From: a virus
IMG/VR virus record: IMGVR_UViG_3300031626_001263
Location: 1-22,063 of that record
Strand: one strand, 5' to 3'
DNA length: 22,063 nucleotides
Translations under genes and position numbers: made by a program
The notes under the pieces: generated by a model
What the model was told of the DNA's origin: nothing
The model's input: only the letters and a program-made list of their open reading frames with translations
The model's database searches: none
Shown here: positions 1,861-20,453 of the stretch, in pieces
How positions within the stretch are numbered: position 1 is the stretch's first letter
Layout of the letters: every line of letters begins with the position of its first letter

Positions 1861-1888
1861 ATTATAAATATAAATATATGAAATTCAA
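1861..1888 (-). promoter_or_regulatory. Sigma-70-type promoter for the nrdA operon
   Basis: Read on the minus strand: -35 TTGAAT at 1888-1883, 16-base spacer, -10 TATAAT at 1866-1861, then five bases to the ATG at 1855. No ribosome binding site fits between -10 and ATG, so the transcript should start at or beside the start codon. The -35 lies inside the first codons of the divergent gene at 1878. Confidence 0.65.
1863..1870 (+). promoter_or_regulatory. T4-late-type promoter word TATAAATA
   Basis: An exact match to the T4 late promoter -10 word TATAAATA lies seven bases before the ATG at 1878; a second overlapping copy occupies 1869-1876. No -35 hexamer is visible upstream, as expected for sliding-clamp-activated late promoters. 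The same tract supplies the minus-strand TATAAT. The DNA is AT-rich, so chance matches are possible. Confidence 0.5.
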
Positions 1889-2108
1889 CGCTTTAGTTAA
1901 AAATATATTAGAAGATTTTAAAGCTCCAACCGATACTAAAAGACCTACCAAAAGGTCTAAGGGTAAATATGGTACCGTTAACCCACAATTAAACGATCCA
2001 CATAGTACTAAAGCTATTTCTGGATTTAAAGGCATGCCTGGTGGTAAACAGCATACTTTAAAATTTGCGTTACCTAAGCGTAAGAAGAAGACTAAAAAGC
2101 CATCTTAA
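1878..2108 (+). CDS. Small basic protein with capsid-targeting-like leader, 76 aa
   Basis: I chose the ATG at 1878 rather than the longer reading from 1815, because the extra 21 residues would run across the divergent promoter region. The protein begins MKFNALVKNILED, nearly the same leader as the protein starting at 20453 and similar to that of the superoxide dismutase, with an I-L-E site of the kind cut by T4-type prohead protease. The rest is very basic, ending KRKKKTKKPS, with Gly/Pro/Lys-rich low-complexity sequence, as expected of an internal head protein that binds DNA. It converges with the muramidase-like gene, overlapping its 3' end by 17 bases. The function is an inference; the leader similarity is directly visible. 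Confidence 0.7.
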   Translation: MKFNALVKNILEDFKAPTDTKRPTKRSKGKYGTVNPQLNDPHSTKAISGFKGMPGGKQHTLKFALPKRKKKTKKPS

Positions 2109-2601
2109 CACCTTTTTGAATATCAGCGTCTGAAATCTTAGCAGCTTCTTTTTGACCATTTTCAAATTGGAAAATTGGTCTCATTAATTTTATTAACACC
2201 TGTGGGTCATTTAGATCAATTTTTTCATCAACATCAAACCCTGATCCGTTTGAAACATGTTTTGCATAGTTGGCGTTATTTGGATTATTATCTTCTGGAG
2301 GAGCATATCTATCAATAATTTTATTAATAGTATCTATACCATATTTTCTACCATATGTTCTTAAAATCCTAGCAGAAGCTCTAACCCCCATATGCATATC
2401 GCTAAATCTCTCAAATTCTTCACCAGGTTCAGTTACCTCACCATTCCAATTTGTAGGTGAGGTACGAATATTTCCAGGATTATTATTAAAGATTGATGCG
2501 TCGGCTTGGCTAGCCATTAACCCTGCTGCTGCAAATGCACCAGTTGCTAATGCTTTACTAAATTTACCTTCTTCAATAACGTATGCTTTAAATGTCTGCA
2601 C
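2092..2601 (-). CDS. Virion muramidase-like protein (NNPGNIR family) with capsid-targeting-like leader
   Basis: The motif NNPGNIR (39-45) followed by FERFSDMHMGVRASARILRT is typical of phage virion-associated peptidoglycan-degrading proteins, often annotated as structural protein P5 or muramidase; these open the cell wall for DNA entry. The leader MQTFKAYVIEEGKF closely matches the T4 internal-protein capsid-targeting pattern (M-x-T-aromatic-x-x-aromatic-(I/V)-x-E) and has an I-E-E cleavage-like site. A hydrophobic Ala/Gly-rich stretch (17-31) ending SQADA could alternatively be a signal peptide or signal anchor. The start codon is GTG at 2601 and shares its first G with the helicase TAG stop, so translation is probably coupled. 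A classical endolysin is the main alternative to a virion enzyme. Confidence 0.72.
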   Translation of the reverse strand: MQTFKAYVIEEGKFSKALATGAFAAAGLMASQADASIFNNNPGNIRTSPTNWNGEVTEPGEEFERFSDMHMGVRASARILRTYGRKYGIDTINKIIDRYAPPEDNNPNNANYAKHVSNGSGFDVDEKIDLNDPQVLIKLMRPIFQFENGQKEAAKISDADIQKGVKMAF

Positions 2602-4229
2602 TATACAAATCTTTCTATAAAGTATTTAGGCAATTTGTTCTTATTCCGAATAATGGCTTCATATACACCTGCATCTAAAATATAAGTCTTACAATGATCT
2701 TGCTTACTTCGTATACCTCTACCACATTGCTGTACAACATTACTTAACATCTTATTTGAATACCATGCCTTATCTAATTCAAATAACTTCTTAATTCTAT
2801 TATCACCAAGTGGTAAGTACGGAGCTTTAATTACTATTTGAAATCTAGCTAAGTCATCTTTTAAATCAATACCTAAACCTAATGATGGACTTACTAATAC
2901 AGTTGGTTCTTTACTATTCGAATGCTGTCTTAATAGTTCTTCATTCCTCGTTTCTTTATCTCTACATAAAAAGCGTCTACTCTTTAAATTATTCTGTAAG
3001 TATGAAGCTATAAACCCAGTATGGGTATGTATAATACCTTTTTCGAATTCATGTTGCTTACATATCTCTTCTATCTGCTTTACAATCTTAGGTAATGTTT
3101 TCTTTAAATTATAATGATTAATCTTTTGCTTAGTATTAATATAGATAGGAGCTTTTTGAGGATCGAAAGTACTATCTGATTCTACATATTCGTACTCCTT
3201 TATACCTAAGCTCTTAGCAAAATGTTTATGATCAATAATAGTAGCAGACATTAACAGTACGTTATCAGCGTACTTAAAAATATATTTTGATAAAACATCC
3301 ACCTTTAACGGCATTACTCTAGCAGTCTTACCATCTCGCTGTACAACATACTCACACTCTTCCCACGTTTCAGTTATTAAGTTTAAACTTCTATGGAGAT
3401 TTTTTAAATAACTTAGCTTAATATTTTCACTATTACTAAGCTGTATATTTTTATTATTACTTTTATTAGTTAATGTATTTATATACTCACTAACTTCTAG
3501 GATACATGAACATATCCATTTATATATAGCATCTTGTTTTTCGGAATATAAACTTGGTACACTTACCCCTAATAACTTTAAACGGTCAGGGTCAATAAAG
3601 ACTGAATATTGTTTTACTATCTCATCTTCAAGTTCAGATGCCTCATCACATATAATAAAGTTTTTACGTTTTATATGCCCGGGTAAGGCTAAAAACATCT
3701 TATAATTTAATACCCCAAACTTATCGACTAATCCTCTATTACGAGCATTATGGTAATTACACTTATGAGCTTTTCTATGTTCATCTAATACCTTACGAGG
3801 CATTACAGATGTCTCCATTTCAACATCAATATCAGGGTTTATAGTACTAGTGTAATTACTCTTACCTTTCATTACCATACTATCATCAAACAATTCATAA
3901 TACTGATCTTGTAATGATTTAGTTATAGTTAATGCGAATGCACCGCTAGCTGGCTCATCTAAACACTCAGGCTCATTAATATAATTACCAACGTTATCCA
4001 TTTTAAACGCATCGTAACTATCAATTAATTCTTTAAATGAATCTGTAGATTCGTTCGATACATTAGCAAGGGTCTTTGATATAAAACTCTTACCGCTCCC
4101 GGTAGGTGCACTACAAATTACAAATTTATGACCTTTATTAAATGCATGCTCAATCTTTTTAATTATATTGATCTGCTGCGTACTCGGATTATAACCGTCA
4201 GGAAATTTATTAAGGTATTTACTCAGCAT
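2601..4229 (-). CDS. DinG/XPD-like superfamily 2 DNA helicase
   Basis: This is an ATP-dependent 5'-3' type DNA helicase of the DinG/XPD/Rad3 group by motif order. Walker A APTGSGKS is at 41-48, TKSLQDQY (motif Ia) near 103-110, DEAS (DEAH-box variant) at 195-198 and MSATI (motif III) in the middle. Late in the protein come HTHTGF, GLGIDLKDD and QQCGRGIR (motif VI). The region that carries the four Fe-S cysteines in XPD/DinG is recognisable (KGKSNYTS and KCNYHNARNRG) but holds a single cysteine, so the cluster appears lost. The gene likely acts in replication, recombination or repair. A TATAAT box six bases before its ATG suggests its own promoter, with the muramidase-like gene downstream. Confidence 0.9.
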   Translation of the reverse strand: MLSKYLNKFPDGYNPSTQQINIIKKIEHAFNKGHKFVICSAPTGSGKSFISKTLANVSNESTDSFKELIDSYDAFKMDNVGNYINEPECLDEPASGAFALTITKSLQDQYYELFDDSMVMKGKSNYTSTINPDIDVEMETSVMPRKVLDEHRKAHKCNYHNARNRGLVDKFGVLNYKMFLALPGHIKRKNFIICDEASELEDEIVKQYSVFIDPDRLKLLGVSVPSLYSEKQDAIYKWICSCILEVSEYINTLTNKSNNKNIQLSNSENIKLSYLKNLHRSLNLITETWEECEYVVQRDGKTARVMPLKVDVLSKYIFKYADNVLLMSATIIDHKHFAKSLGIKEYEYVESDSTFDPQKAPIYINTKQKINHYNLKKTLPKIVKQIEEICKQHEFEKGIIHTHTGFIASYLQNNLKSRRFLCRDKETRNEELLRQHSNSKEPTVLVSPSLGLGIDLKDDLARFQIVIKAPYLPLGDNRIKKLFELDKAWYSNKMLSNVVQQCGRGIRSKQDHCKTYILDAGVYEAIIRNKNKLPKYFIERFV

Positions 4230-4235
4230 ATAACA

Positions 4236-4264
4236 ATTATAATATCAGACTGCCGATAAAACAA
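4236..4264 (-). promoter_or_regulatory. Candidate promoter for the helicase gene
   Basis: On the minus strand, TATAAT at 4241-4236 lies six bases before the ATG at 4229. The best -35 is TTGTTT at 4264-4259 with a 17-base spacer, a weak match. The -10 position agrees with the five- to seven-base geometry of the other promoters here, but the -35 is poor, so confidence is moderate. Confidence 0.4.
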
Positions 4265-4586
4265 CTATGTTATTGTATAACTTACTTTTCTTTTCAAAGT
4301 TTAAGACTTTGGTTTTAAAATGAACAAACTCATTATTTTTGGCAAATTCCTCTATTCTATAATCAAATTTAAGATGCATATGACCTACTTCAGAATTAAA
4401 AGGAAAGGGGATTTCATATTGTTTTATATCACCCTTTTCATTTTCCAAGGATAAACTAAAATAAAAATCTTTTACTTTAAATAAAATTAACTTGCCACGT
4501 TTTAAAGGCTTTACCGGATTAATATAGATTACTATATTTCTAAGTAATAAATTAGTTAGGTCTTTTTCTAGTTTTTCAAACTTCAT
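4245..4586 (-). CDS. Hypothetical protein, 113 aa
   Basis: I do not recognise this small protein. It appears to be mostly beta strand (RNIVIYINPVKPLKRGKLIL, then FYFSLSLEN and FVHFKTKVLNF) after a short N-terminal helix. There is no signal peptide, membrane segment or cysteine. Its ATG overlaps the stop of the SH3-like protein upstream by four bases (ATGA). It is the last gene of the operon that begins with the DUF366 gene at 6977. Confidence 0.72.
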   Translation of the reverse strand: MKFEKLEKDLTNLLLRNIVIYINPVKPLKRGKLILFKVKDFYFSLSLENEKGDIKQYEIPFPFNSEVGHMHLKFDYRIEEFAKNNEFVHFKTKVLNFEKKSKLYNNIVVLSAV

Positions 4587-4957
4587 GTACCCATATAACC
4601 TCTCTTTTCATCCGCAGACATTGGATATATTTTTTCATTAAAATACTGAAAAAATTCGTTTTCAGGTATAGTATTTATTACTTCACAATTTTCCATACTT
4701 ACCATTCTCCAACCTTGCATCATAATGTCCCATACAGGTAATAAATTTTTACTACCAGGATTATATTTTGGGTTACTAGATGGTGGTTTATAATTTAATG
4801 TCGTTCTACCATTGACACTATTAAGTAAACTCTCATCTAGAGTACATAGCATTCTTCTTTGAGAACTATCACCGGGTTTAGGTCTTCGTTTCACAAAAAT
4901 TATTTCACAGACATTACCCTGTAAAGTATTTTTAAGACTCGGTAGACTTACTTTCAT
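4583..4957 (-). CDS. Small WYL_2/SH3-like phage protein, 124 aa
   Basis: The central pattern RRMLCTLDESLLNS, followed by NYKPPS, LLPVWDIMMQGWRM and a closing strand, resembles small SH3-like beta-barrel proteins of marine T4-like phages (the WYL_2, formerly DUF2693, type); this is from memory and unverified. I chose the ATG at 4957, which has AAGG just upstream and overlaps the co-chaperonin gene by 26 bases. An ATG at 4993 in the same frame would add a Lys-rich 12-residue extension lying inside the co-chaperonin tail and is less likely. The function is unknown; related folds bind nucleic acid or small ligands. Confidence 0.7.
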   Translation of the reverse strand: MKVSLPSLKNTLQGNVCEIIFVKRRPKPGDSSQRRMLCTLDESLLNSVNGRTTLNYKPPSSNPKYNPGSKNLLPVWDIMMQGWRMVSMENCEVINTIPENEFFQYFNEKIYPMSADEKRGYMGT

Positions 4958-5465
4958 TTTCCTTTTTTGCTTTTTCTGCTTCGCTTTTAGCAATTGCTTT
5001 CAAACGGGTTTTTACTTTACTAACTTCTTTTTTATTTGGTTTATTTGCTGTTTCATTTTTATGTTTAGCTATACCAAATAGCCGATTTTCGTTTAAAAAT
5101 ATACCTTTTTTAAGTTTACCGTAACCTGAAACATCAGCATTTCCAATACCAACCCCTAGGTTATTCGGAAATATAACTACATCATCTTTTTTTGTATATT
5201 TACATTCAGGTCCTGCTAAAATAACTTTACCTTTTCTCCATGCTCTTTGAACTGCATTAGTTGGGATGTAAACACCACCTCTCATAACAGCATCACCTTG
5301 ACCATCGGATATTTCGTCTATATATTCTACTAAAATAATATCATCGAATAAAAAACCAAGTTCGTAATCTTGATCAATAATACCATCAAGTGTATTGTTA
5401 TGAGAGTCGACTAAGTCTATTAAATTTCTTTTTGTTGCGAGTACGTCTATATTTGCTTGTGCCAT
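4932..5465 (-). CDS. GroES-type co-chaperonin (T4 gp31-like role), 177 aa
   Basis: The core from about residue 40 follows the GroES fold. DDIILVEYIDE is the first strand, then comes a mobile loop with RGGVYIPT in place of the GGIVLT of GroES, then WRKGKVILAGP, DDVVIFPNNLGVGI and the closing strand ENRLFGIAK. Such phage proteins cap the host GroEL, typically to allow the major capsid protein to fold. Compared with the roughly 97-residue GroES, it has an N-terminal extension of about 38 residues and a Lys/Glu-rich tail of about 45 residues, which are unusual and probably disordered. It follows the methyltransferase by two bases. The assignment rests on motif order and the hydrophobic loop tripeptide. 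Confidence 0.85.
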   Translation of the reverse strand: MAQANIDVLATKRNLIDLVDSHNNTLDGIIDQDYELGFLFDDIILVEYIDEISDGQGDAVMRGGVYIPTNAVQRAWRKGKVILAGPECKYTKKDDVVIFPNNLGVGIGNADVSGYGKLKKGIFLNENRLFGIAKHKNETANKPNKKEVSKVKTRLKAIAKSEAEKAKKENESKSTES

Positions 5466-5467
5466 AA

Positions 5468-6025
5468 TTATTTTACCCTTTCTAGTATACCAAGACCGTT
5501 ATTATTGGTATAAAATTTCTTTTTTATCCAGTGTGGGTTTTCTTCTATAAATTCATCAATTGCGGCTAATAAGCCAGGCTTCCAATACTTACCATTATTT
5601 TCGCTATACTCACCACATACCTCGGTATCATGGAACATTAAGTATTTTGTAGCTTTATTACCATGTAATTTTAATTCTTGTACCAGATGTTCATATGTAT
5701 GTAAGGTGTCAATAAACAGTAGATCGCATTCGTCTATTTCAATATCTAATGTACAAGACTTAATAAAGGAAAAATCTATATTATCCAACATACAAGCTTG
5801 TCTAACAAGATTTAAACTATTTTCCGGGGGTGATACAATATCTATAGATGTAAGCTTTTTGGGATTGCCTTTGAGAAACGCCCATGTAGAACAAATAAAT
5901 CTAACACCCATTTCGACAATAGTATCACATTCTGAAGCATACTTGGCTATAATTGGTAAGTGTTCATTAATATCACCTGGTACTCTACAAACTGTGTTAA
6001 ACTGGTCGTCAATTATATCACTCAT
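5468..6025 (-). CDS. Class I SAM-dependent methyltransferase, 185 aa
   Basis: A Rossmann-type methyltransferase is indicated by DTIVEMGVRFICSTWAFL (about 34-51; motif I, strand then glycine loop), LTSIDIV (motif II acidic residue), DECDLLFIDTLHTYEHLVQE (motif IV region) and a late LMFHDTEV. The DxLHTYEHV-like motif is typical of the Methyltransf_24/CmcI-like group often found in polysaccharide and small-molecule clusters. The substrate cannot be read from the sequence. It lies between the gp62-like gene (five bases away) and the co-chaperonin gene. A DNA methylase is unlikely because no DPPY/NPPY-type motif is present. Confidence 0.85.
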   Translation of the reverse strand: MSDIIDDQFNTVCRVPGDINEHLPIIAKYASECDTIVEMGVRFICSTWAFLKGNPKKLTSIDIVSPPENSLNLVRQACMLDNIDFSFIKSCTLDIEIDECDLLFIDTLHTYEHLVQELKLHGNKATKYLMFHDTEVCGEYSENNGKYWKPGLLAAIDEFIEENPHWIKKKFYTNNNGLGILERVK

Positions 6026-6030
6026 TATGT

Positions 6031-6393
6031 TTATTTACATGTAAAATTTTCTAATTCAACAAGATGTTTATATTCTCTTTGACTGTAAAATTCAGGTATC
6101 AATTGTTTTTCTTCTTTACTCTTTTTTTCCTTCTTTATCTTTTTAAGATAGTTTAATCTTTTAAATTTCAATCTAGGCAATATAGAATAGATGTAGTTAT
6201 ATTGAGACAACTTATCATCAAATAGATTCCAATACTTATTAGTAGTTTCATTTATGTATTCATTTAACTCTTTTGAATACATACTAGTCCATCTATTAAC
6301 CATAAATAGATTAAACTGCGATTCATCATCACAGTTCATATCTATCTTTTTCTTACTAAACAGTAAGCTATTTATATATTGAAATATTGTCAC
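6031..6393 (-). CDS. Sliding-clamp loader small subunit, T4 gp62-like
   Basis: In T4, gp62 joins four copies of gp44 to load the gp45 clamp for replication and late transcription. The protein is short and helical, with FNLFMVNRWTSMYSK (about 28-42), an Asn/Tyr-rich helix and QYNYIYSILPRLKFKRLNYL (64-83). This pattern (FN-x-F-(M/I)-V-N-R ... QY-x-(Y/F) ... P-R-x-(R/K)-(Y/F)) is what I recall for the phage clamp-loader A subunit family. The C-terminus is Lys/Glu rich. It overlaps the DUF366 gene by four bases. A loader subunit implies gp44 and gp45 homologues elsewhere, in line with the late-promoter-like words in the window. Confidence 0.65.
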   Translation of the reverse strand: MTIFQYINSLLFSKKKIDMNCDDESQFNLFMVNRWTSMYSKELNEYINETTNKYWNLFDDKLSQYNYIYSILPRLKFKRLNYLKKIKKEKKSKEEKQLIPEFYSQREYKHLVELENFTCK

Positions 6394-6977
6394 AGATTAA
6401 TCTTAGTAGTTGCAATAAACATATCATCATTCATCGCATAAAATAAATCAATAATATCTTGCATAAACCCTTCAACCTGCTCATCGGTAAGTTTAGTACT
6501 ATAAGCAAAGTTAGGAGCATTCGACCCAGCATTTACATTGATACCAGTATGCCCGATAGCTACATTATCCTTTGAATAAGTAATGCTGACACTACATTTA
6601 CCAACGGTTTGTAGGCTACCATCACTACCTTCGAACTCATCATGTACCATTAGATCATCACCGTCTACTTCAATAGGCTTCTTAATATACTTTGAAGATA
6701 GAATATTAGCAATCTGTGTATTTAAAAGTCGCTGATACGCTACAGCACCGAACTTATCCAAGTTAGGAATTTCCCAACAAAAACTAATTGCATCGTCACT
6801 TGCAATATAATCGTTTTGAAGTACATCTTCTTGATCGATCATACCATCAATACCTACATTCATATAACCTCTAAAGGCTATAATATTTCCAATAGGTAAA
6901 GTTTTCTTTCGAAAGAAATTATACGCAAAACGTTTATGAATTAAATCACCGTCATAATTAAGATTTTTAATAATCAT
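6390..6977 (-). CDS. DUF366-family protein, 195 aa
   Basis: The order of motifs fits DUF366: an opening I-H-x-R-x-A-Y segment, IIAFRGYMNV (about 32-41), IDQEDV, a central YQRLLNTQIANIL, EVDGDDLMV and KCSVSITYS, then VAIGHTGINVNAG (140-152). The family is small and soluble and has been tied by recollection to 7-deazaguanine DNA modification in phages (as a proposed decarboxylase); I cannot verify that here, and no DpdA-like or QueC/D/E-like gene lies in the window. It is the first gene of an operon with its own strong promoter and lies just upstream of the gp62-like gene. The family call is fairly good; the function is open. Confidence 0.7.
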   Translation of the reverse strand: MIIKNLNYDGDLIHKRFAYNFFRKKTLPIGNIIAFRGYMNVGIDGMIDQEDVLQNDYIASDDAISFCWEIPNLDKFGAVAYQRLLNTQIANILSSKYIKKPIEVDGDDLMVHDEFEGSDGSLQTVGKCSVSITYSKDNVAIGHTGINVNAGSNAPNFAYSTKLTDEQVEGFMQDIIDLFYAMNDDMFIATTKINL

Positions 6978-6983
6978 AACTTA

Positions 6984-7011
6984 ATTATAAATTATAAAAT
7001 GAATTTATCAA
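6984..7011 (-). promoter_or_regulatory. Sigma-70-type promoter for the DUF366/clamp-loader/co-chaperonin operon
   Basis: On the minus strand: -35 TTGATA at 7011-7006, 16-base spacer, -10 TATAAT at 6989-6984, then six bases to the ATG at 6977. The -35 lies within the last codons of the upstream GT17 gene. No ribosome binding site fits, so a leaderless transcript is expected. Confidence 0.7.
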
Positions 7012-7855
7012 GCTTATTTTTATTATTAATTATATATTCTGGGTAGGTATTGTCTATTTCTACCTTTTTTAGTGAACCTTGCCTTCCAAAAATATCTTGC
7101 AAATTATCTACAGTATTGTCAAGATTATCTTTAATATCGTCTCTATTTATTTCTTGATGACTATAGCTAATAATTTTTTCTTTTACCGCTTCTTTACCAC
7201 CCATAAAACTAAAATGCCAACCACCGTTATCAACTAAACTGTCCCATTTAAAATTTCTTGTATCATTTAAGCAAACATTTTTAATAGTTTCATAACTAGT
7301 GAGGGTTGTACCTTTCCAATTATTTTCTTTAAAAACATTAAAATAATAATAGTACATATTTTGGAGCAATCTGTAAATTTTATCTTTATTAAAAAATTTA
7401 TTTAAATTTTCAATTACCTTTGGGTTAGGTATTTCATCTATATCTGACATTAAGATAATATCTTCATCGTTACATTTACCATACCCAACCCGTAACATTT
7501 CTCTATGTAGGAAATCTCTACACCAATTCTTTTCATTTTTAGGAAAATGTGTTGCATTTTTAAAAAATGTTAATACTTTATTTGTTTCTTCTTCTTTAAA
7601 ATTTTCTGGATTGTCAATAAATTTAACATCATTAAAGTCATCAAATTCTAAATCATGCTTAATATAAATTATTTTATCTGAATATTTTTTAAATAAATCT
7701 CTATTTTTTTCAAATATATACTCTTTCTTTAGACCGGAATGAGTTATATTGAATTCTGAAATAATAAAATAGTCTACTACATTGTCTAAGATTTTTAATC
7801 TTATATCAAGTAAATCGAGTTCGTTAAAAAATATAAATGTATCGTAAATTTTCAT
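6992..7855 (-). CDS. Glycosyltransferase family 17 protein, 287 aa
   Basis: The N-terminus YDTFIFFNELDLLDIRL is diagnostic of GT17 (named for eukaryotic beta-1,4-mannosyl-glycoprotein N-acetylglucosaminyltransferase but widespread in viruses and bacterial surface-glycan clusters). It is followed by FIISEFNITHSG, WCRDFLHREMLRVG, an acidic ILMSDIDEIPNPKVI (DxD-type metal/nucleotide-sugar site) and a Tyr-rich YYYYFNVF. The C-terminal part holds GWHFSFMGG, also typical. The start overlaps the upstream GT11-like gene by four bases. It is the last gene of the sugar cassette. The transferred sugar and acceptor cannot be told from sequence. Confidence 0.92.
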   Translation of the reverse strand: MKIYDTFIFFNELDLLDIRLKILDNVVDYFIISEFNITHSGLKKEYIFEKNRDLFKKYSDKIIYIKHDLEFDDFNDVKFIDNPENFKEEETNKVLTFFKNATHFPKNEKNWCRDFLHREMLRVGYGKCNDEDIILMSDIDEIPNPKVIENLNKFFNKDKIYRLLQNMYYYYFNVFKENNWKGTTLTSYETIKNVCLNDTRNFKWDSLVDNGGWHFSFMGGKEAVKEKIISYSHQEINRDDIKDNLDNTVDNLQDIFGRQGSLKKVEIDNTYPEYIINNKNKLDKFIL

Positions 7856-11163: not shown

Positions 11164-11168
11164 ATCTA

Positions 11169-11196: not shown

Positions 11197-11205
11197 GCAT
11201 TAACA

Positions 11206-12941: not shown

Positions 12942-12949
12942 AAGATTAT

Positions 12950-13675: not shown

Positions 13676-13679
13676 AAAT

Positions 13680-14489
13680 TTACGCTTCCCACGTTTTTAT
13701 ATATTCTTTAAGTTCTTTATCAGAGCAATTGCCTACAAACTCACTATGATTGTAATTATTTTGATACATGTTATGTCTCTCTCTTATTGTATTTTCGTGA
13801 GGAAAATGCCAAGCTATAGCATTATGATCTTTAACTCTATCCCACGTATAACCTAATCTCTTAACTCGATTAATAATTTCATCATCTTCAAATCCCCAAG
13901 CAACAAAATTTTGATTATAACCGTTAAATTTAATAAATCGTTCTTTATTATACATAACCATTCCACCTTTACTACCGGGGTGGGCTACCAAAAAGTTATC
14001 AGTTTCATGATATGGTACGGGTTTCAGTTCTTGAATTTTATCATTTAATAAATTCATTTCATATTTACTAGTGAACTTATCCATTAAATGTTGCTTAAGG
14101 TGAACAAACATTCCATTGTAAGGGTGTAAAATGCCTAACTTATCATCTTTTTCGAACATTTCCTTACCTTTAAGTAGATATAACGGGTCGATAAAAACAT
14201 CAGTATCACCGGCGATTAGGTAATTAGATTCTAAATTTCTCATACCTTTATTAAAAGCTAATGTCCTGTGATATAACCCGTCGTTTTTCATGAATAGGAT
14301 TTTACAACCATATTTTTCATGTAATTCTTTTAATGATGCATCCGGTTCTTTATCATCATTTACTATTACTATTTCTAAATTTTCAGAAAAAGTCCTATAA
14401 AAAGATAACACACATTTTAAGTTGCGTAATCTATCTTCTACATCTTTTCTAAAGTGAATAATTAAACCTATATCTTTTAAATCTGTCAT
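13680..14489 (-). CDS. GT-A glycosyltransferase (family 2 / galactosyltransferase C-domain type), 269 aa
   Basis: The early part has IGLIIHFRKDVEDRLRNL and NLEIVIVNDDKEPD, then YHRTLAFNKGMRNLESNYLI and AGDTDVFIDP (DxD motif). The late part has SKGGMVMYNKERF and FVAWGFEDDEIINRVKRLG, the hallmark of the C-terminal galactosyltransferase domain (W-G-x-E-D-D/E-x-x). Such enzymes add hexoses to growing surface glycans. The ATG overlaps the stop of the GT11 gene upstream by four bases (ATGA). It appears intact. Confidence 0.9.
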   Translation of the reverse strand: MTDLKDIGLIIHFRKDVEDRLRNLKCVLSFYRTFSENLEIVIVNDDKEPDASLKELHEKYGCKILFMKNDGLYHRTLAFNKGMRNLESNYLIAGDTDVFIDPLYLLKGKEMFEKDDKLGILHPYNGMFVHLKQHLMDKFTSKYEMNLLNDKIQELKPVPYHETDNFLVAHPGSKGGMVMYNKERFIKFNGYNQNFVAWGFEDDEIINRVKRLGYTWDRVKDHNAIAWHFPHENTIRERHNMYQNNYNHSEFVGNCSDKELKEYIKTWEA

Positions 14490-15247
14490 ACTGTTATAAT
14501 TTTAAATTCTTTCCTGTAAAGTCCTTCTGTATTTGTATTATCATTAAACCATCTAGATGGGGCAACAATTATATCCTTTTTGTTAAAATATGATGCAAAC
14601 CATGACAAGGTACTGTTAGATATAATTAAATTTTTACATCTTGTTAAGAATAAAAAATCTCCTATTTCATTACCACCGTCTATAATTTTAACCTCACCTG
14701 GCAATAACTGGTTAGCGTAATTTTTGTCATCGGTAACCGCATAAAGCTTACTATTTTTAAATAACCCGATACTATCTTTATAATATTGCTGATTAATAAT
14801 ATTATGCTTTGAGTATATTTTATAATCTCCGCCTCTAACATGAATACCAACGGTATCGTCATCTATAAAATCATCAATTTGTTCTATTTTAGATTTTAAA
14901 GAGCTAAAACTAATAATATCTAAATCTTCTTTATCAAAATAATAATCAGATTGAAAATAACCTTCTAATATTACATTACCATCCATAAATGGTATTTCAT
15001 TATACTCGAAAGATGGTTCATTATATAAATTAAAGCTACTATCTATTTTATTTTCTGGTATATTTTGAAATAAATTATTTTTATATGTACTTGGTGTATT
15101 ACCTTGACTAGCATGGAATTTGTTATTGTAATCTATAAAAAATTCTTTACCGTGTACCTTTGCATAATTATAACCAGCTAATATTTGAAATAGTTGATTA
15201 CCTAACCCGCCTTTTAAATTTACTGTTACTTTATATTTTGTTTGCAT
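14486..15247 (-). CDS. GT11 alpha-1,2-fucosyltransferase-like protein, 253 aa
   Basis: The protein has the full GT11 layout: NLKGGLGNQLFQILAGYNYA at the start, VILEGYFQSDYYF, TVGIHVRGGDY (the H-x-R-x-G-D motif that binds the GDP moiety), YAVTDD and FLFLTRCKNLIISNSTLSWF, ending with IVAPSRWF. These enzymes move fucose from GDP-fucose to a galactose 2-OH in O-antigen or capsule. GDP-fucose synthesis genes are not in the window, so the host may supply the donor. It overlaps the end of the upstream GT2 gene by 22 bases. It is a second, more canonical GT11 member in addition to the gene at 7852. Confidence 0.92.
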   Translation of the reverse strand: MQTKYKVTVNLKGGLGNQLFQILAGYNYAKVHGKEFFIDYNNKFHASQGNTPSTYKNNLFQNIPENKIDSSFNLYNEPSFEYNEIPFMDGNVILEGYFQSDYYFDKEDLDIISFSSLKSKIEQIDDFIDDDTVGIHVRGGDYKIYSKHNIINQQYYKDSIGLFKNSKLYAVTDDKNYANQLLPGEVKIIDGGNEIGDFLFLTRCKNLIISNSTLSWFASYFNKKDIIVAPSRWFNDNTNTEGLYRKEFKIITV

Positions 15248-16020
15248 TTTTTTAAAAAGTTAACTATATCACTCACTGAGGAATCAGGTACACAACCTTG
15301 CCAAGCTGGTAAATAACCATGCTTATTTTTAAATATTTCAGCACTTTCCATTATTTTTTGTTGCCAATTATCACCTCTTCTAATAGAAGAATTATCTTCA
15401 CTACAAGCTTGTTCTTCAATATAATCTAGACTATTAGCAATATCAGACCACCACCAATATGGTGTACTGTAACCAGCCTTAGCTAAACTATAAGAATGCT
15501 CGACATGTTCAAAATTATTTTTATCAAAATTTTCATCAAATAAGCCTACCTTTTTTAAACACTCTTTTGTATAAAAGCAAACTGCACCAACGCAGTGTTG
15601 ATTTAATGCTAATTTAAAATCACCATAATCTATAATTTTTCGTGGTTTTGGTTCACCTTTACTAATATTACCTTTATTAGCTGGTCCATGGTAACCAAAC
15701 ATCATATGATGAATACCTGTTTTTTTATAAGCATCAATATAAGCTTTAAAAGCATTATCTTTAAACATCATATCATCCTCAACTATAAAAATATAATCGC
15801 ATCCAGTTTTCAATAAATGTTTAAATAATTTATTTTTACTTTTACATACACCAATATTTTTTTTATTATTAATGATATTATAACCAGCGTTTTGTAAAGG
15901 TACATTACCATCATTTACTATTAATAATTCATCATACCATTCTTTATTAATACTTTTTAAACATTTATCTAAAAAATTATTCCTATTACATGTAACAATA
16001 CCTATTCCTATCTTTGACAT
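15226..16020 (-). CDS. Family 2 glycosyltransferase, 264 aa, first gene of the sugar cassette
   Basis: The start KIGIGIVTCNRNNFLDKCL and ELLIVNDGN are typical of GT2, followed by NNKKNIGVCKSKN, CDYIFIVEDDMMF (DxD-type EDD) and a C-terminal QHCVGAVCFYTKECLKKVG with GLFDENF. I chose the ATG at 16020 rather than the longer frame from 16098. The extra 26 residues are hydrophobic low-complexity sequence read across the divergent promoter region, and this ATG lies seven bases after a clear -10 box. It heads the cassette. Acceptor and donor are unknown. Confidence 0.9.
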   Translation of the reverse strand: MSKIGIGIVTCNRNNFLDKCLKSINKEWYDELLIVNDGNVPLQNAGYNIINNKKNIGVCKSKNKLFKHLLKTGCDYIFIVEDDMMFKDNAFKAYIDAYKKTGIHHMMFGYHGPANKGNISKGEPKPRKIIDYGDFKLALNQHCVGAVCFYTKECLKKVGLFDENFDKNNFEHVEHSYSLAKAGYSTPYWWWSDIANSLDYIEEQACSEDNSSIRRGDNWQQKIMESAEIFKNKHGYLPAWQGCVPDSSVSDIVNFLKKCKQNIK

Positions 16021-16027
16021 TATATAT

Positions 16028-16055
16028 ATTTTATAATAAATAATTAATATGTCAA
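16028..16055 (-). promoter_or_regulatory. Consensus sigma-70-type promoter of the sugar cassette
   Basis: On the minus strand: -35 TTGACA at 16055-16050 (perfect consensus), 16-base spacer, -10 TAAAAT at 16033-16028, then seven bases to the ATG at 16020. The -35 is formed by the first codons (ATGTCAA) of the divergent gene at 16049, so coding and promoter sequence are shared. The transcript should be leaderless. Confidence 0.7.
16035..16042 (+). promoter_or_regulatory. Late-promoter-like word AATAAATA before the tail-type gene
   Basis: AATAAATA, one base from the T4 late word TATAAATA, ends six bases before the ATG at 16049. A TTGACA at 16014-16019 lies 17 bases before TAAATA; it is made by the first codons of the divergent gene, mirroring the opposite promoter. 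Either element, or both, could be used. Confidence 0.4.
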
Positions 16056-16414
16056 CCGAAATAAGTATTAAACAATTACCTGTAGTAACTGAAATCAATA
16101 ATGATGATTTGTTATTAGTTCAAACACCAAATGCAACTAATACATTAAAATTTGAAAATTTTGTTATCGGTTTAGAAAATACTACATTTGCCCCTACAAT
16201 TAGCTCTAGTGCTACTAAACTTGCTTATTTAAGTTCAGTTTTTGATAATACCTTCTTCTTTGCTCCGGTAGAAGATGGTCCTAATATATTAACCAATAAT
16301 ACAACTAGTACTACATTATCAGTAATTGATACTGACAAGATACCAATTCAGATTACATCAGGTGGTCAGAAAAGGACATATTATTTCTTATTAGAGCGTG
16401 GCGCGACTGTTTAA
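16049..16414 (+). CDS. Small virion/tail-fibre-type structural protein, 121 aa
   Basis: The opening ISIKQLPVVTEINNDDLLLV, then a short strand and LKFENFV, is the recurrent beginning of phage tail-fibre and related structural proteins (I-K/S-x-L-P ... D-D-L/F-x-(V/I) ... (K/V)-x-F-x-(N/D)-F). The rest is Thr/Ser-rich beta sequence, for example TTFAPTISSSATKLAYLSSV. There is no signal or membrane segment. It may be a fibre adaptor or a truncated fibre; the usual large fibre body is absent. It overlaps the 3' end of the kinase-like gene by four bases and has a short terminator-like hairpin just beyond. Confidence 0.7.
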   Translation: MSTEISIKQLPVVTEINNDDLLLVQTPNATNTLKFENFVIGLENTTFAPTISSSATKLAYLSSVFDNTFFFAPVEDGPNILTNNTTSTTLSVIDTDKIPIQITSGGQKRTYYFLLERGATV

Positions 16415-17172
16415 TTATTAGTTAGATCATCAAGCTTCTTGATTTTTTCTAACTGCTCTTTAAACTCGTCTTCCTCTTTCTTTGTATGTTCCTGAGATAA
16501 GAGTATTTTTTCCATCATTTCTATATTTTCTGGGGTAAATATTTCCGAACCACCTTCACCTCCCATAACATCACCTTCTGCATCGATATATAATTTAATC
16601 ATTTGCATACGTTCTTGCTTATTACCGAAAACTTCAATTAATGCTGGGGAATCGTCTCTAGGAAAGAATGGATTATCCTGAGGATTTTCATGATAATGTC
16701 TCTGTAGTACTTTAAAAAAGCTATCAATTTCTTTAATGTATTTTTCATCAACTTCCCTAACACCGTTATCTTCTACTTTAATCTCATTAAATTTCGACAT
16801 TGGTATAAAAAAGATAATATCTAATTTAGTTAAAGCCTCTCTAACAATTGGAATACACTCATCAATAAAGTCTTCATCTATATCATTACCTTCTTGACTC
16901 ATAGCCCACATAGAGTAAACTAAATTATCTAAAGGACATCTATCAAAAATAACTTTATCACCTTTCTTAAACTCTTTTAAGGTTTCAACCATATAATCAA
17001 GAATAGCTTTTTGTGATTTTTTAGTAGTTTGTTTACTATGAGGTAAACCTTTTTCATTTAGAACGTCTCTATATGTCTTAACTTCACGCCCATACATATC
17101 CCACTCATTTAAGAAGTCTTGTATTAACGTACTTTTACCAACATTTGCTGTACCACAGATTGCAATTCTCAT
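16411..17172 (-). CDS. P-loop nucleotide-kinase-like AAA protein (AAA_28/NadR-kinase type), 253 aa
   Basis: The Walker A motif GTANVGKST is at residues 6-14, after MRIAIC. VIFDRCPLDNLVYSMWAM carries the D-R-x-x-x-D pattern of nucleoside/nucleotide kinases and the NadR ribosylnicotinamide-kinase-like AAA_28 group. LDIIFFIPMSKF is the strand before the lid. The C-terminus is a charged Glu/Lys helix (about 215-248) that may be a coiled coil. I chose the ATG at 17172, seven bases after a -10 box, not the frame extended to 17256, which crosses the divergent promoter. The substrate is unknown: a thymidylate-kinase-like or nicotinamide-riboside kinase role are alternatives. Confidence 0.8.
   Translation of the reverse strand: MRIAICGTANVGKSTLIQDFLNEWDMYGREVKTYRDVLNEKGLPHSKQTTKKSQKAILDYMVETLKEFKKGDKVIFDRCPLDNLVYSMWAMSQEGNDIDEDFIDECIPIVREALTKLDIIFFIPMSKFNEIKVEDNGVREVDEKYIKEIDSFFKVLQRHYHENPQDNPFFPRDDSPALIEVFGNKQERMQMIKLYIDAEGDVMGGEGGSEIFTPENIEMMEKILLSQEHTKKEEDEFKEQLEKIKKLDDLTNN
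16429..16448 (+). terminator. Possible short intrinsic terminator after the tail-type gene
   Basis: ATCAAG, a three-base loop, CTTGAT and a run of six T form a short hairpin followed by a U-tract on the plus strand, 15 bases after the stop at 16414. The stem is only six pairs with two G-C pairs, so it is weak. It lies inside the 3' end of the convergent gene, where it encodes part of KKLDDLT. Confidence 0.4.
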
Positions 17173-17179
17173 ATATATT

Positions 17180-17207
17180 ATTTTATAATAAAAATTTGAT
17201 ATATCAA
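17180..17207 (-). promoter_or_regulatory. Sigma-70-type promoter for the nucleotide-kinase-like gene
   Basis: On the minus strand: -35 TTGATA at 17207-17202, 16-base spacer, -10 TAAAAT at 17185-17180, then seven bases to the ATG at 17172. Its -35 forms the right half of the palindrome shared with the divergent promoter. Confidence 0.65.
17196..17207. repeat. Palindrome TTGATATATCAA made of two back-to-back -35 boxes
   Basis: This perfect 12-base palindrome consists of the plus-strand -35 (17196-17201) abutting the minus-strand -35 (17202-17207). RNA polymerases on the two strands could not bind at once, or a symmetric regulator could bind here; only the symmetry is directly seen. Confidence 0.7.
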
Positions 17208-17223
17208 GTCTATATACTATAAT
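17196..17223 (+). promoter_or_regulatory. Sigma-70-type promoter for the RecB-like nuclease gene
   Basis: On the plus strand: -35 TTGATA at 17196-17201, 16-base spacer, -10 TATAAT at 17218-17223, then six bases to the ATG at 17230. It mirrors the promoter of the opposite gene; no ribosome binding site fits before the ATG. Confidence 0.7.
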
Positions 17224-17229
17224 TAATGT

Positions 17230-17940
17230 ATGATTACGTTTGATGAAAAGTCCCATACTTACAAGTGTAGTAAAACCGGTAGAGAATTAATATCGGCAAC
17301 TACTTTAATAGGTAAGTATAAGAAGCCATTTGATAAAATGGAAAATGCAACTCGAGTAGCTAATAGAGAAGGTTTAGATGTCGACTTTGTATTAGATATG
17401 TGGGAGACGGAAAAGAATAGAGCTTGTGATTACGGTACTAGTATTCATAAGGTCATGGAAGATTATTTGACCGAAGGGGTTGAAGAAGAAGAGCATGAAT
17501 CTTTGTATTCTTCTTTTAATAAGTGGAAGCATATCTTTAAGAAGTTTCCTACTTTATTATGTGAAGAAAAATTACATGATTTAGATAATTTTATTGCTGG
17601 TACAGCAGATTTAATTTACGAAAATAAAACCCATTTCATGGTTGGTGATTTTAAGACTAATAAAGCGTTTAATTTCTTCTCTCAATATAATGAGTTTATG
17701 CTTAAACCGATGGATCATTTAAGTGTATGTGAATTCAATACATATGCGTTACAATTATCTTTATATGGTTATTTACATGAAAAGAGTTCAGGCAAAAAGT
17801 GTACCGGTTGTGTTATATTCTATAAGGATAAAGAAACTAATAAGTTTTACCCAATCAGGGTTAACTATATGAAGAATGAAATTATTGCATTAATTGAAGA
17901 TTACAATAATCCCAATTCACTATCTTCAAAAATTGCTTAA
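17230..17940 (+). CDS. PD-(D/E)XK nuclease, RecB/Cas4-like, 236 aa
   Basis: The layout fits the PDDEXK_1 group. It has ISATTLIGKY near the start, GTSIHKVMEDYL with H73, GTADLIY with D127, then VGDFKTNK with D140-x-K142, and LQLSLYGYL with Q175-x-x-x-Y179, the RecB-type motif V. Such nucleases process DNA ends in recombination or degrade DNA. The four Cys cluster of Cas4-type Fe-S nucleases is absent (cysteines at 13, 66, 111, 167, 191 and 194 lack its spacing). It has its own promoter and converges with the superoxide dismutase gene, overlapping it by 59 bases tail to tail. Confidence 0.85.
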   Translation: MITFDEKSHTYKCSKTGRELISATTLIGKYKKPFDKMENATRVANREGLDVDFVLDMWETEKNRACDYGTSIHKVMEDYLTEGVEEEEHESLYSSFNKWKHIFKKFPTLLCEEKLHDLDNFIAGTADLIYENKTHFMVGDFKTNKAFNFFSQYNEFMLKPMDHLSVCEFNTYALQLSLYGYLHEKSSGKKCTGCVIFYKDKETNKFYPIRVNYMKNEIIALIEDYNNPNSLSSKIA

Positions 17941-18505
17941 TATACTTTTCTCTATTAGGACCATACTTTTTATAGTAAGCATGCTCCCATACATCTATAC
18001 CAAGTAGTATAGTTACGTCTGAATACATTAAAGGGTTATCTTGGTTGTTGGTAGGTATTAATTCTAATTTATTACCTTTTTTAACTAACCATAACCAACC
18101 TGAACCGAAATGACTTAAAGCTTCTTCAACAAATATAGCTTTAAAATTATCAAAACTCTTATATTGTTTTTCAATTAACTCTCTAATAGGTCCAGAAATT
18201 GTTTTTCTATCTGGTGACATCATATTCCAGAATAACTGGTGATTATACGCGCCCCCTGCATTATTACGAATTGCATCTTTTTTAGATTTAGCTTTTTTAA
18301 CTATTGACAATAAATCTTGCTTATTAGTAGCTGGTAATGCTGCATTTAATTTTTTAACATAACCTTTATAGTGTTTGTTAAAATGCAAGTTCATTGTTTC
18401 GGCATCTATACTAGGCTCTAAAGCATCTAAAGCATATGGAAGCTTTATAGCTTTAATACCACCCACTTCTTCTAAAATTAAATCTGCTATTTTGTTATAT
18501 TCCAT
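17882..18505 (-). CDS. sodA: Mn-type superoxide dismutase with capsid-targeting-like N-terminal leader, 207 aa
   Basis: The enzyme converts superoxide to oxygen and hydrogen peroxide. Metal ligands are all present: H41 (in NLHFNKH), H89 (in NHQLFW), D171 and H175 (in DVWEHAYY). Mn-type markers are NNAGG before H89 and Gln155 in NNQDNPLM, where Fe enzymes differ. Relative to E. coli SodA it has about 14 extra N-terminal residues, MEYNKIADLILEE plus V, which resemble leaders of other virion-like proteins in the window. Cleavage after Glu13 would leave nearly the usual start before LPYALDALEP. The C-terminus ends soon after the conserved VNWD. A TAAATA word lies seven bases before the ATG. The host gene is its likely source, but the leader looks phage-made. 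Confidence 0.93.
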   Translation of the reverse strand: MEYNKIADLILEEVGGIKAIKLPYALDALEPSIDAETMNLHFNKHYKGYVKKLNAALPATNKQDLLSIVKKAKSKKDAIRNNAGGAYNHQLFWNMMSPDRKTISGPIRELIEKQYKSFDNFKAIFVEEALSHFGSGWLWLVKKGNKLELIPTNNQDNPLMYSDVTILLGIDVWEHAYYKKYGPNREKYIKQFLKIVNWDYCNLQLMQ

Positions 18506-18512
18506 ATAAAGT

Positions 18513-18518
18513 TATTTA
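18513..18518 (-). promoter_or_regulatory. TAAATA late-type -10 word before the superoxide dismutase gene
   Basis: TAAATA (18518-18513 on the minus strand, in the context ATTAAATA) ends seven bases before the ATG at 18505, the same spacing as at 1878 and close to those at 16049 and 20453. No usable ribosome binding site lies within 10 bases of the ATG. On its own this is weak, as the region is AT-rich. Confidence 0.35.
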
Positions 18519-18519
18519 A

Positions 18520-18951
18520 TTAGTTATTGTTACCTCTTTTAACATATTTTTGTATTCTTTTATAAGATTGGAGTTCAAAATAACTTAATACAATTTTTTT
18601 AAGTTTAGAATTAAAATTAGAAGATCTAATTAATTTAGCAGGAATAGTTTTTAGTTTTAAATTTAAAGCTTTCTGTGTTCTATTATTACCGTCTAATATA
18701 TATTTCACTTTTTCATTTTCATCAACCATTATGATAATAGGATATTGTCTTGTAATTTTAACTTCTTTTACCTTTTTAATATCCCTTGAAGCTATATAAA
18801 CAATCTTAGCTAATTTTTCCGTTGGATAATCTTGTTGAGGTATAATTTTTATTATCTCTTTTAATTCTTGTATAATTATTTCATTTTTTCCTTCAAAATC
18901 TTTTAATGGTAGGTGTGGGTGAAAATAATTATTTTTACTATATTCTTCCAT
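18520..18951 (-). CDS. ParB/Srx-fold-like protein, 143 aa
   Basis: The central part YPIIIMVDENEKVKYILDGN, followed by NRTQKALNL, is the ParB N-terminal (ParBc) pattern, in which D-G-x-x-R binds nucleotide and shapes the fold. Phage relatives include nucleases and adapters. Before it lies VYIASRDIKKVK, and after it a basic C-terminus (KKIVLSYFELQSYKRIQKYV). There is no helix-turn-helix or partition partner, so chromosome partition is unlikely. It follows the small Cys/Lys-rich protein by four bases and precedes the superoxide dismutase by 14. The role is unknown. Confidence 0.65.
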   Translation of the reverse strand: MEEYSKNNYFHPHLPLKDFEGKNEIIIQELKEIIKIIPQQDYPTEKLAKIVYIASRDIKKVKEVKITRQYPIIIMVDENEKVKYILDGNNRTQKALNLKLKTIPAKLIRSSNFNSKLKKIVLSYFELQSYKRIQKYVKRGNNN

Positions 18952-18955
18952 CTAT

Positions 18956-19153
18956 TTATTTTTTACCGCCTTTCATATTTGCACACCAATGATACATTTT
19001 ACCTTTTTCACCACCAGATTTTTTAGCTTTACGTCTTAGTTCAGTTACCGAACCTTTACAACTAGCCCCTGATTTTTTAACTCTACCCGGGCGGCTTTTT
19101 CCTTTTACCTTTTTATCGGCGTAATTTTCAAAATATGTACTAAAATTAATCAT
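18956..19153 (-). CDS. Small Lys/Gly-rich protein with Cys and His, leader of capsid-targeting type, 65 aa
   Basis: The start MINFSTYFENYADKK follows the T4 capsid-targeting spacing (aromatic residues at 4 and 7/8, Glu at 9), although no (I/L)-x-E site is present. The body is highly basic (KKVKGKSRPGRVKKSG) with two conserved-looking segments, ASCKGSVTELR and KMYHWCANMKGG; I recall this ending from other marine phages but cannot verify it. A DNA-binding internal head protein is a reasonable inference. It abuts the collagen-like protein gene with no gap and belongs to the same minus-strand run. Confidence 0.7.
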   Translation of the reverse strand: MINFSTYFENYADKKVKGKSRPGRVKKSGASCKGSVTELRRKAKKSGGEKGKMYHWCANMKGGKK

Positions 19154-20098
19154 TTATGAAGGAGCTATTCTGTTTAAGGCATCTATAATTACACTAGCAT
19201 AATAATTTACACCCGAGTTTGCTGTTTCGAAGTCAACCTTGCGTTGACCTTTTAAGATATCATAATTAAAATCCGTTTTACTTTCATAAACTGTATCAAC
19301 TAAAGATGCTTCAAATGTTTTTAACGCGTTCCTCCAAGTGGTACCAAGACTGCCGACTACATAGCTGCCATCTCCGGTACCGGCTCCGATTTGGAAAAAT
19401 ACAGCTCTGTTATTAGGTTTAAAATCTAAACCTTGTTTCATAAAACCTATCGACCCGGCATAGCCGGAATAGCCGTCATCACCTGGTGCCCCGTCGAAAT
19501 CGTCAGGAAAGGTCCCACCAGGTGCGTAACTACTATTCGACATGATATCTTGAAACATCATATTAATAACGTTTTTTGAGGAATCTACCATATCTAACCC
19601 TCCTATTGCTATACTATTTTTCTTAGCAGTAATCCCATTTAAATGAGAACTAGGACCGTGGTTTGCAAGAGTACCGCTACCGGTAGTCAGGCTTTGCATA
19701 GTACGCACAGTAACATTTGAATTATAAAGCGATTCGTTGTTACCATAAAAAGGTAGTAGCAGGCTCTTTAATTCAACACCTCGTAGACTTACTAAACTGT
19801 CAAAAGCTCCTGCCATTGAGGTACCACTAGTGGAGTTTTGAATAACAATATTAATAAAAGTATTTTGATTTATGAGACTAGTTAAACCGCCATCGAAAGC
19901 AGCAATCGTCTCACTAGTAAGGGACCCGAAAATTTTCGTAGATTTATATTTTTGATATTGGGCCCGGATACTATCTATAGATACTTCTTTATTTAACTCA
20001 TCTTTCGTTTTAAAATTATCTGGTCTAGACTTTGAAATTGACCGACTTCGTTTTAAATTATTTTTTGATATTGCTAGATATTTTTTTCTATTAATCAT
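19154..20098 (-). CDS. Probable virion structural protein with a short collagen-like run, 314 aa
   Basis: I do not recognise the family. The N-terminus is basic and Ser/Arg-rich (KRSRSISKSRPDNFK, about 16-30). The middle is Ser/Thr/Gly-rich beta-like sequence (for example FINIVIQNSTSGTSMAGAFD). Five consecutive Gly-x-y triplets (GAP GDD GYS GYA GSI, 203-217) are followed by hydrophobic sequence. Such runs are common in phage fibres and decoration proteins. The C-terminal part NSGVNYYASVIIDALNRIAP looks helical. It overlaps the gene upstream by eight bases. The DNA at the Gly-rich part is unusually G+C-rich (33 of 60 bases in 19441-19500). Confidence 0.72.
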   Translation of the reverse strand: MINRKKYLAISKNNLKRSRSISKSRPDNFKTKDELNKEVSIDSIRAQYQKYKSTKIFGSLTSETIAAFDGGLTSLINQNTFINIVIQNSTSGTSMAGAFDSLVSLRGVELKSLLLPFYGNNESLYNSNVTVRTMQSLTTGSGTLANHGPSSHLNGITAKKNSIAIGGLDMVDSSKNVINMMFQDIMSNSSYAPGGTFPDDFDGAPGDDGYSGYAGSIGFMKQGLDFKPNNRAVFFQIGAGTGDGSYVVGSLGTTWRNALKTFEASLVDTVYESKTDFNYDILKGQRKVDFETANSGVNYYASVIIDALNRIAPS

Positions 20099-20453
20099 TT
20101 TCTTTCATTCTTTGGGTTTTTTTCTTACTTGCTTCTTTTTTATTTTTAATATAATTAAAAGCAGCTCTTAAACTCTTTTTCTTTATAGGGTCTTTGGTTC
20201 TTCCTACTGCGGCTCTAACTCTTTGATGTATTAAATTTATAATTTGAGATTGTCTTGCATGAGATTTCGATTTAAAAGATCTTTTATTTAAAGTACCTCT
20301 TACATCAGCTACTGTACTAAATTTTACACTAACTGTATCTTTAGGATTTTCATCGGTATACAGTCTTCTACTAGAACCTTTAGGTTTTTTACCGGTTCCT
20401 TTCTTAGGATCAGCTTCTAATAATATTTTTTCTACTAAAGTGTTAAACTTCAC
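20091..20453 (-). CDS. Basic internal-head-type protein with capsid-targeting-like leader, 120 aa
   Basis: The start codon is GTG at 20453 (an ATG would lie too far downstream), giving MKFNTLVEKILLEADPKKG, whose first 13 residues nearly match the leader at 1878 (M-K-F-N-x-L-V-x-x-I-L) and contain an L-L-E site. The remainder is Lys/Arg-rich: GSSRRLYTDENPKDTVSVKF is a motif I have seen in marine phage proteins, followed by HARQSQIINLIHQRVRAAVG and KKASKK-like tails. An internal, DNA-binding or DNA-delivered protein is likely. It is the first gene of the minus-strand virion run. Confidence 0.72.
   Translation of the reverse strand: MKFNTLVEKILLEADPKKGTGKKPKGSSRRLYTDENPKDTVSVKFSTVADVRGTLNKRSFKSKSHARQSQIINLIHQRVRAAVGRTKDPIKKKSLRAAFNYIKNKKEASKKKTQRMKEND

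Follow-up and report, generated by a model that had tools for sequence, protein, structure and literature searches.

Leaders resembling T4 capsid-targeting propeptides stand before unrelated proteins, including a superoxide dismutase, in an uncultured phage

Introduction

Why should a superoxide dismutase (SOD), a predicted transglycosylase and several small basic proteins of one phage begin with similar short amphipathic peptides? The question is raised by IMG/VR record IMGVR_UViG_3300031626_001263, an entire 22,063-base viral contig (hereafter the window) whose source is an uncultured phage. An initial annotation of the window, made from its letters alone, proposed that five such leaders belong to a modular head-cargo system, in which a leader has been joined to different cargo. 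In T4, the capsid-targeting sequence (CTS) is an N-terminal propeptide of the internal proteins IPI, IPII and IPIII and of Alt that is cut by gp21; the first 10 residues of IPIII are enough for packaging, and T4-like phages have been suggested to acquire various proteins by way of the CTS (PMC9026906). We conclude that the leaders in the window are very probably capsid-targeting propeptides of the T4 kind, which a gp21-type protease removes and which serve as exchangeable cargo tags.

Results

All five N-termini are present (Table 1; genes are named here by the position of their first base), with 1878 on the plus strand, 2601, 18505 (the SOD), 19153 and 20453 on the minus strand, and GTG as the start codon of 2601 and 20453. 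As proposed, four of the five carry an (I/L)-x-E site (ILE at residues 10-12 in 1878 and in the SOD, LLE at 11-13 in 20453, IEE at 9-11 in 2601), and 19153 has none. The bodies are likewise unrelated, comprising the SOD, a T7-gp16-type transglycosylase (2601) and three small basic proteins, none of which had a Pfam match over the curated cut-off; the 76-aa protein (1878) had no PHROG match either. The leaders of 1878, 20453 and the SOD form a single type, roughly M-x-[FY]-x-x-L-x-x-x-[IL]-L-(x)-E (the MKF type, with an aromatic residue at position 3 and Leu at 6), while the 2601 leader has F4 and Y7 at the key positions 4 and 7 of the IPIII form (the T4 type).

Because circularity was to be avoided, we built profiles from other contigs, scanning IMG/VR for DNA encoding M-K-F-[N/D]-x-L-x-x-x-[I/L]-L-x-E and training the MKF-type profile on 52 leaders. 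Among the 745 open reading frames (ORFs) of the window and its relatives, 14 N-termini scored at least 8 bits, compared to 0.08 expected from internal windows; the same profile had no matches in HTVC008M, Mosig or T4 1-50 kb. The specific leaders are thus far commoner at N-termini than chance predicts. As a positive control we used T4 IPII and IPIII, whose N-terminus is MKTYQEFIAEA, and IPIII scored at the limit of the T4-type profile. Neither profile detects members of the other type, and we therefore distinguish two leader types; the idea that the five leaders make up a single family was rejected on this ground. We also rejected a loose motif (an aromatic residue plus any [LIVMF]xE) that has a high background, with 4 window genes compared to 4.5 expected. 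Thus, it is the specific forms that carry the signal.

Internal windows of the same proteins served as the background for scoring each leader, and the resolution limit was P = 7e-6. After correction for the approximately 35 ORFs of the window, 1878, 20453 and 2601 survive, the SOD leader is marginal on its own, and 19153 fails, so that four of the five proteins bear out the original observation; the assignment to the T4 type stands for 2601, whereas the 19153 leader by itself is not above chance. Scores were lower in P among relatives for the SOD leader (1e-4 in one relative, MKF-type profile), for the 2601 leader (6e-5 in one relative, T4-type profile) and for homologues of the 19153 protein (1.6e-4 to 4.6e-4), and the leader of the 76-aa protein is kept in its homologues in the related contigs G001, G002, G003 and G004.

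The IMG/VR scans sought a DNA pattern beginning with ATG and did not require a gene start, and yet the matches lie at gene starts. Fewer than 30 open codons stand upstream in 18 of the 20 non-identical MKFN matches, 51 of the 55 MKFD matches and 80 of the 81 T4-type matches listed, the T4-type matches being a sample (at least 81 are non-identical); ORFs of at least 40 codons are opened by 19, 50 and, again among the matches listed, 79 of these, respectively. The MKFN and MKFD scans left the position after the predicted cut free, and 31 of 60 matches have A, S or G there, where 18% would be expected (P = 3.5e-9).

The SOD, identified by Pfam (E = 1.4e-33; Sod_Fe_N and Sod_Fe_C domains), allowed us to place a leader relative to a known fold. 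The leader is present in every complete SOD of the group, with L11 and E12 invariant in 18 sequences and residues 13-15 variable. Pfam and Protein Data Bank (PDB) matches start at residues 15-24, mostly 18-21, and in the AlphaFold2 model most of the core has a predicted local distance difference test score (pLDDT) above 85, whereas the leader is a separate low-confidence helix (residues 3-14; block means 51 and 69). The leader thus lies outside the SOD fold. Residues H41, Y49, H89, Q155, D171 and H175 are invariant in the 18 SODs; we take H41, H89, D171 and H175 to be metal ligands, and Y49 and Q155 the active-site Tyr and Gln. The SODs of Vibrio phage 2.275.O and MW462191 have no such leader. 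The SOD-like protein of PA5oct (L314:771-1319) has an N-terminal extension with SIAEA, an IAE/A-like site (here and below a slash marks a predicted or possible cut); its record bears the depositor's note 'ESI-MS/MS', which may mean detection in the virion, so that this could be a second, independent case of an SOD in virions.

The initial annotation had suggested looking for the same leader on different cargo, and we found this at both the DNA and protein level. At the 2601 locus, the DNA upstream is 92% identical between the window and G001 over 60 nt by a gap-tolerant aligner (shuffled sequences reach 65-68% with it, and this figure and the 89% below have meaning only in contrast to that level), and residues 1-26 are 65% identical (E = 1e-7); beyond these residues BLASTP finds nothing, and DNA identity is at background past about codon 24. 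The transglycosylase body of 2601 is 89% identical in DNA to an L025 protein whose leader differs in length. Since leader and upstream DNA match G001 and the body matches L025, the leader and body of 2601 appear to have different histories. The G001 protein with the MQTF leader falls in one PHROG of unknown function; its body had no Pfam, PDB or phage-record match, and its AlphaFold2 model (mean pLDDT 60) no significant fold match. A by-eye resemblance of that body to a transglycosylase is not claimed. For the 2601 body itself, tblastn gave matches to internal virion proteins of T7-like phages at 35-40% identity, and together with the PHROGs match (Table 1) this points to homology with the catalytic domain of the T7 gp16-type internal virion transglycosylase. 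Directly behind the 2601 leader is a hydrophobic, signal-peptide-like stretch, partly common to the G001 protein with its unrelated body, which could be an export signal.

Other exchanges involve the small basic proteins. A 199-aa protein of contig L006 has an MKF-type leader, a NUDIX domain (E = 4.9e-12) and then a basic body that is 84% identical to the window 65-aa protein (18956-19153), and both lie near the SOD. The window 120-aa protein (20091-20453) has a homologue without leader in podovirus HTVC033P, similar from residue 15, with the predicted cut between residues 13 and 14. In cyanophages, T4-GC119 proteins (L319:102-2228, L320:1411-2226 and L321:868-2355) consist of small basic or Cys-rich domains in series, among them domains of the 120-aa protein and of other leader cargo. 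To judge from these domains, T4-GC119 proteins look like polyproteins; by eye, the interdomain junctions are E/A or E/G-like, which we treat as a lead only. Leader pairs from the same contig (12 pairs) are on average 73% identical in DNA, compared to 66% between contigs, with one pair at 90%, which is no more than suggestive of leader copying within a genome.

The range of cargo is wide. Among 121 leader-bearing proteins scanned we found 26 Pfam families, which include nucleotidyltransferase, kinase/zeta-toxin-like, lytic transglycosylase, phage lysozyme, GNAT, acid phosphatase and anti-CBASS Acb1; terminase is also among them and may be a chance pattern match. The Acb1-like protein (L257:2104-2571; E = 2.8e-23 over residues 21-156) stands behind the T4-type leader MKTFREYLAEA and is a possible pre-packaged counter-defence enzyme. 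The pair with leaders 90% identical in DNA consists of two adjacent genes (L159:4610-5889), encoding a ParB-C-terminal-like protein and a protein with weak similarity, below Pfam cut-offs, to ADP-ribosyltransferases. T4 Alt is an ADP-ribosyltransferase and one of the T4 core proteins cut by gp21 (PMC9026906). The product of T4 gene 61.1 (L071:18966-19130) begins with MKTFKEFIKED, much like the IP leaders. Leader genes are clustered in contig G006, where 8 of 10 consecutive genes (26916-33093) have leader-like starts (permutation P = 0.003); clustering was not significant in the other contigs (P = 0.08-0.94). Homologues of the window 120-aa and 65-aa proteins lie in a gene group of G005 similar to this run. 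Adjoining small genes with leader-like starts are seen at 83-90 kb of G001 as well as 26.9-33.1 kb of G006, and these groups include a protein that by eye is DUF6321-like and another, of 630-665 aa, that has a KFDGAP motif.

The relatives connect these leaders to a T4-type head. Megablast of the window against 50,697 phage records gave no match, and its nearest relatives are IMG/VR contigs reached via the SOD, including the 185-kb G001. Genes for a T4-type prohead protease (Peptidase_S77; E <= 7e-34) and for Gp23, the T4-type major capsid protein (E <= 1.6e-88), are present in each of G001, G002 and G007. In G001, the protease begins with MSLNLIVE, and the product of the gene between the protease and capsid genes, which is probably the scaffold by position alone, begins with MDIKQILSE/A; TATAAATA, a T4-type late promoter sequence, precedes both genes. 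Of nine contigs that bear leaders and measure 86 kb or more, eight contain Peptidase_S77 (G012, G016, G017, G020, G022, G026, G027 and G028); the ninth, G025, had no Peptidase_S77, and its leader match is a doubtful 49-aa ORF. An 84-kb contig in which the pattern matched a 7-codon ORF also matched Peptidase_S77, more weakly, and thus the association between protease and leader is not absolute. The T4-GC190 cytidylyltransferase was detected in purified S-SM1 virions (PMC3037559), and we note that its N-terminus in S-SM1, MKKFSAFLNEA, is a T4-type leader.

A T4-type late promoter (TATAAATA-like) lies within 25 nt of 32 of 60 leader genes. In relatives G001-G007, TATAAATA sites (at most 1 mismatch) form a sharp peak 5 nt upstream of start codons, and G001 has 79 such sites compared to 20.3 expected, about fourfold. 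Given this peak, many late mRNAs would be leaderless, as judged from promoter position.

Table 1. Leaders, bodies and associated features in the window
Feature	Position	Strand	Evidence or remark
Leader MKFNALVKNILE of 76-aa basic protein	1878..1913	+	Predicted cut after E12; MKF-type profile P = 7e-6
Body of 76-aa basic protein, stop included	1914..2108	+	
TATAAATA, T4-type late promoter match	1863..1870	+	7 nt upstream of ATG of 1878 gene
T4-type leader MQTFKAYVIEE	2569..2601	-	Predicted cut IEE/G; T4-type profile P = 1.2e-4
Hydrophobic stretch, residues 17-35 of 2601 protein	2497..2553	-	From sequence
T7-gp16-type transglycosylase body	2092..2496	-	PHROGs E = 2.5e-42
Leader MEYNKIADLILE of SOD	18470..18505	-	Predicted cut after E12; P = 1e-3 alone
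Fe/Mn superoxide dismutase body	17882..18469	-	Pfam
Weak candidate leader MINFSTYFE of 65-aa basic protein	19127..19153	-	P = 0.025
Body of 65-aa basic protein	18956..19126	-	84% identical to C-terminal part of L006 leader-NUDIX protein
Leader MKFNTLVEKILLE of 120-aa basic protein	20415..20453	-	Predicted cut LLE/A; top score of all, P = 7e-6
Body of 120-aa basic protein	20091..20414	-	Leaderless homologue in podovirus HTVC033P

Discussion

We propose that the tagged proteins would be made late in infection, that the 11-13-residue amphipathic N-terminal helix would bind the prohead core, and that the tagged protein would be enclosed as the shell forms. Once a gp21-type protease had cut behind the (I/L)-x-E glutamate, the mature cargo would remain in the head and enter the next host along with the DNA. 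In this view the leader is a portable module, attached by recombination to many bodies that are unrelated to one another. The window cargo would comprise small basic, DNA-binding-like proteins, a peptidoglycan-cutting enzyme aiding genome entry, a role that fits the relationship of the 2601 body to T7-like internal virion proteins, and an SOD protecting either the DNA inside the particle or the cell as infection begins.

The modular head-cargo proposal has fared well: leaders no commoner than chance and leaders buried in the folded domains were named as findings that would speak against it, and neither was found (the second as judged for the SOD), while cargo exchange was found, and relatives encode the protease and capsid protein. 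Several points weigh against it. The window, which is a fragment, has no prohead protease or capsid gene. The MKF type spaces its key residues differently from the T4 leader (3 and 6 compared to 4 and 7), so that one family has become two types, and HTVC008M and Mosig, T4-like too, are without the MKF type. Behind the predicted SOD cut there may be E, S, G, Q or K, and the 19153 leader is weak. Finally, it is from these comparisons that we infer, for the window lineage, that the proteins bind, are packaged, cut and ejected, and what each cargo does.

We considered four other explanations of the common N-termini. The leaders might address proteins to some other phage-made structure, such as a membrane assembly site, the tail or a replication compartment, given that amphipathic helices can bind many partners and that the hydrophobic stretch of 2601 (2497-2553) could be an export signal. 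We consider this unlikely, since the leaders have a protease-like (I/L)xE site followed by A/S/G, a gp21 homologue is encoded by relatives and most large leader contigs, the 2601 body is homologous to internal virion proteins, and T4-GC190 was detected in virions. It is more doubtful still that the first codons are conserved for the sake of the mRNA, for example as a start region for leaderless or weakly led late transcripts, with no targeting role for the peptide. Many leader genes do have TATAAATA 5-7 nt upstream of the start, which would place the start codon at the first bases of the transcript, but most genes with the same promoter lack a leader, the SODs of G003, G004, G006 and others keep the leader behind another gene without such a promoter, and the amino-acid pattern is conserved while codons change.

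We give very little credence to ordinary homology, in which all these proteins would have diverged from a single ancestral family. Kinship that can no longer be recognised could link several of the small basic bodies, but SOD, NUDIX, transglycosylase and Acb1 are unrelated families, which refutes this explanation for the enzymes, and only residues 1-26 are common at the 2601 locus. Chance resemblance in an AT-rich genome, which would account for the score of the 19153 leader alone and for the lack of excess of the loosely defined motif in the window, is hardly credible overall; the independent-profile test with its controls, conservation in relatives and the body swaps refute it for four of the five leaders.

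We therefore return to capsid targeting and its nearest known counterparts. The likeness to the T4 CTS lies in a 10-19-residue propeptide with an aromatic and hydrophobic face and an (I/L)xE site often followed by A/S/G, in unrelated cargo bodies, a T4-type protease and capsid, in the T4 form of the 2601 leader, and in a propeptide outside the mature fold (the SOD; the leaderless homologue of the 20091 body). The promoters before 32 of 60 leader genes may point to late expression as well. Differences are that the MKF type is longer, that the cargo here is wider (SOD, NUDIX, transglycosylases, Acb1-like, ADP-ribosyltransferase-like) and that exchange of bodies is visible between relatives. T7 gp16-type internal virion proteins are ejected cell-wall enzymes to which the 2601 body is homologous, whereas 2601 is small, stands as a protein of its own, bears a T4-type leader and belongs to a T4-like lineage. 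T4-GC119 contains the same small basic domains that carry single leaders here, but strings them in one long protein with cut-site-like junctions by eye. The encapsulation peptides of bacterial microcompartments form short amphipathic helices at the N-terminus and bring unrelated enzymes inside a protein shell; they are not cut off and serve a different shell, so that the comparison with phage leaders can be an analogy only. In SPN3US and phiKZ, a protease related to that of T4 processes head and ejection proteins behind a glutamate motif, and two of these proteins have identical N-termini, but the propeptides are mostly more than 100 residues long (PMC5694885), compared to 11-13 here.

The principle seems to be the one known from the T4 CTS; novelty appears to lie in how varied the enzyme cargo is, in the clear exchange of leaders and bodies, and in the alternative polyprotein arrangement. 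In the open-access literature, subscription papers being outside our scope, we found no paper on a head-targeted SOD or the MKF leader type. We lean, by a little, toward a broader view: a widespread, recombining head-loading system by which T4-like phages would tag whole repertoires of enzymes, with counter-defence enzymes (Acb1-like anti-CBASS, ADP-ribosyltransferase-like and NUDIX) and an antioxidant enzyme among them, to act from the first moment of infection, and whose cargo cyanophages would string into a self-releasing polyprotein. If this is true, a T4 feature of a few tagged internal proteins would become a general, recognisable loading code, and for any protein behind such a leader, most of them now 'hypothetical', one could predict a place in the virion and delivery as infection begins. 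Counter-defence proteins packaged in advance would be at work ahead of any phage gene expression, and a packaged SOD would be an unusual shield for the phage genome or host against oxidants. The leaders could also become new tags for loading chosen enzymes into phage capsids.

Additional observations

Two other parts of the window drew our attention. Between 6992 and 15247, successive proteins resemble, by eye, glycosyltransferases, epimerases and fucosyltransferase-like enzymes, and on this resemblance the gene run probably serves sugar modification. An adenylate/guanylate cyclase gene lies at 21096-22007 (Guanylate cyclase domain, Pfam E = 1.5e-25); a cyclase gene is also present in SAR11 phage HTVC008M, and a 682-aa gene stands at the matching place in G001.

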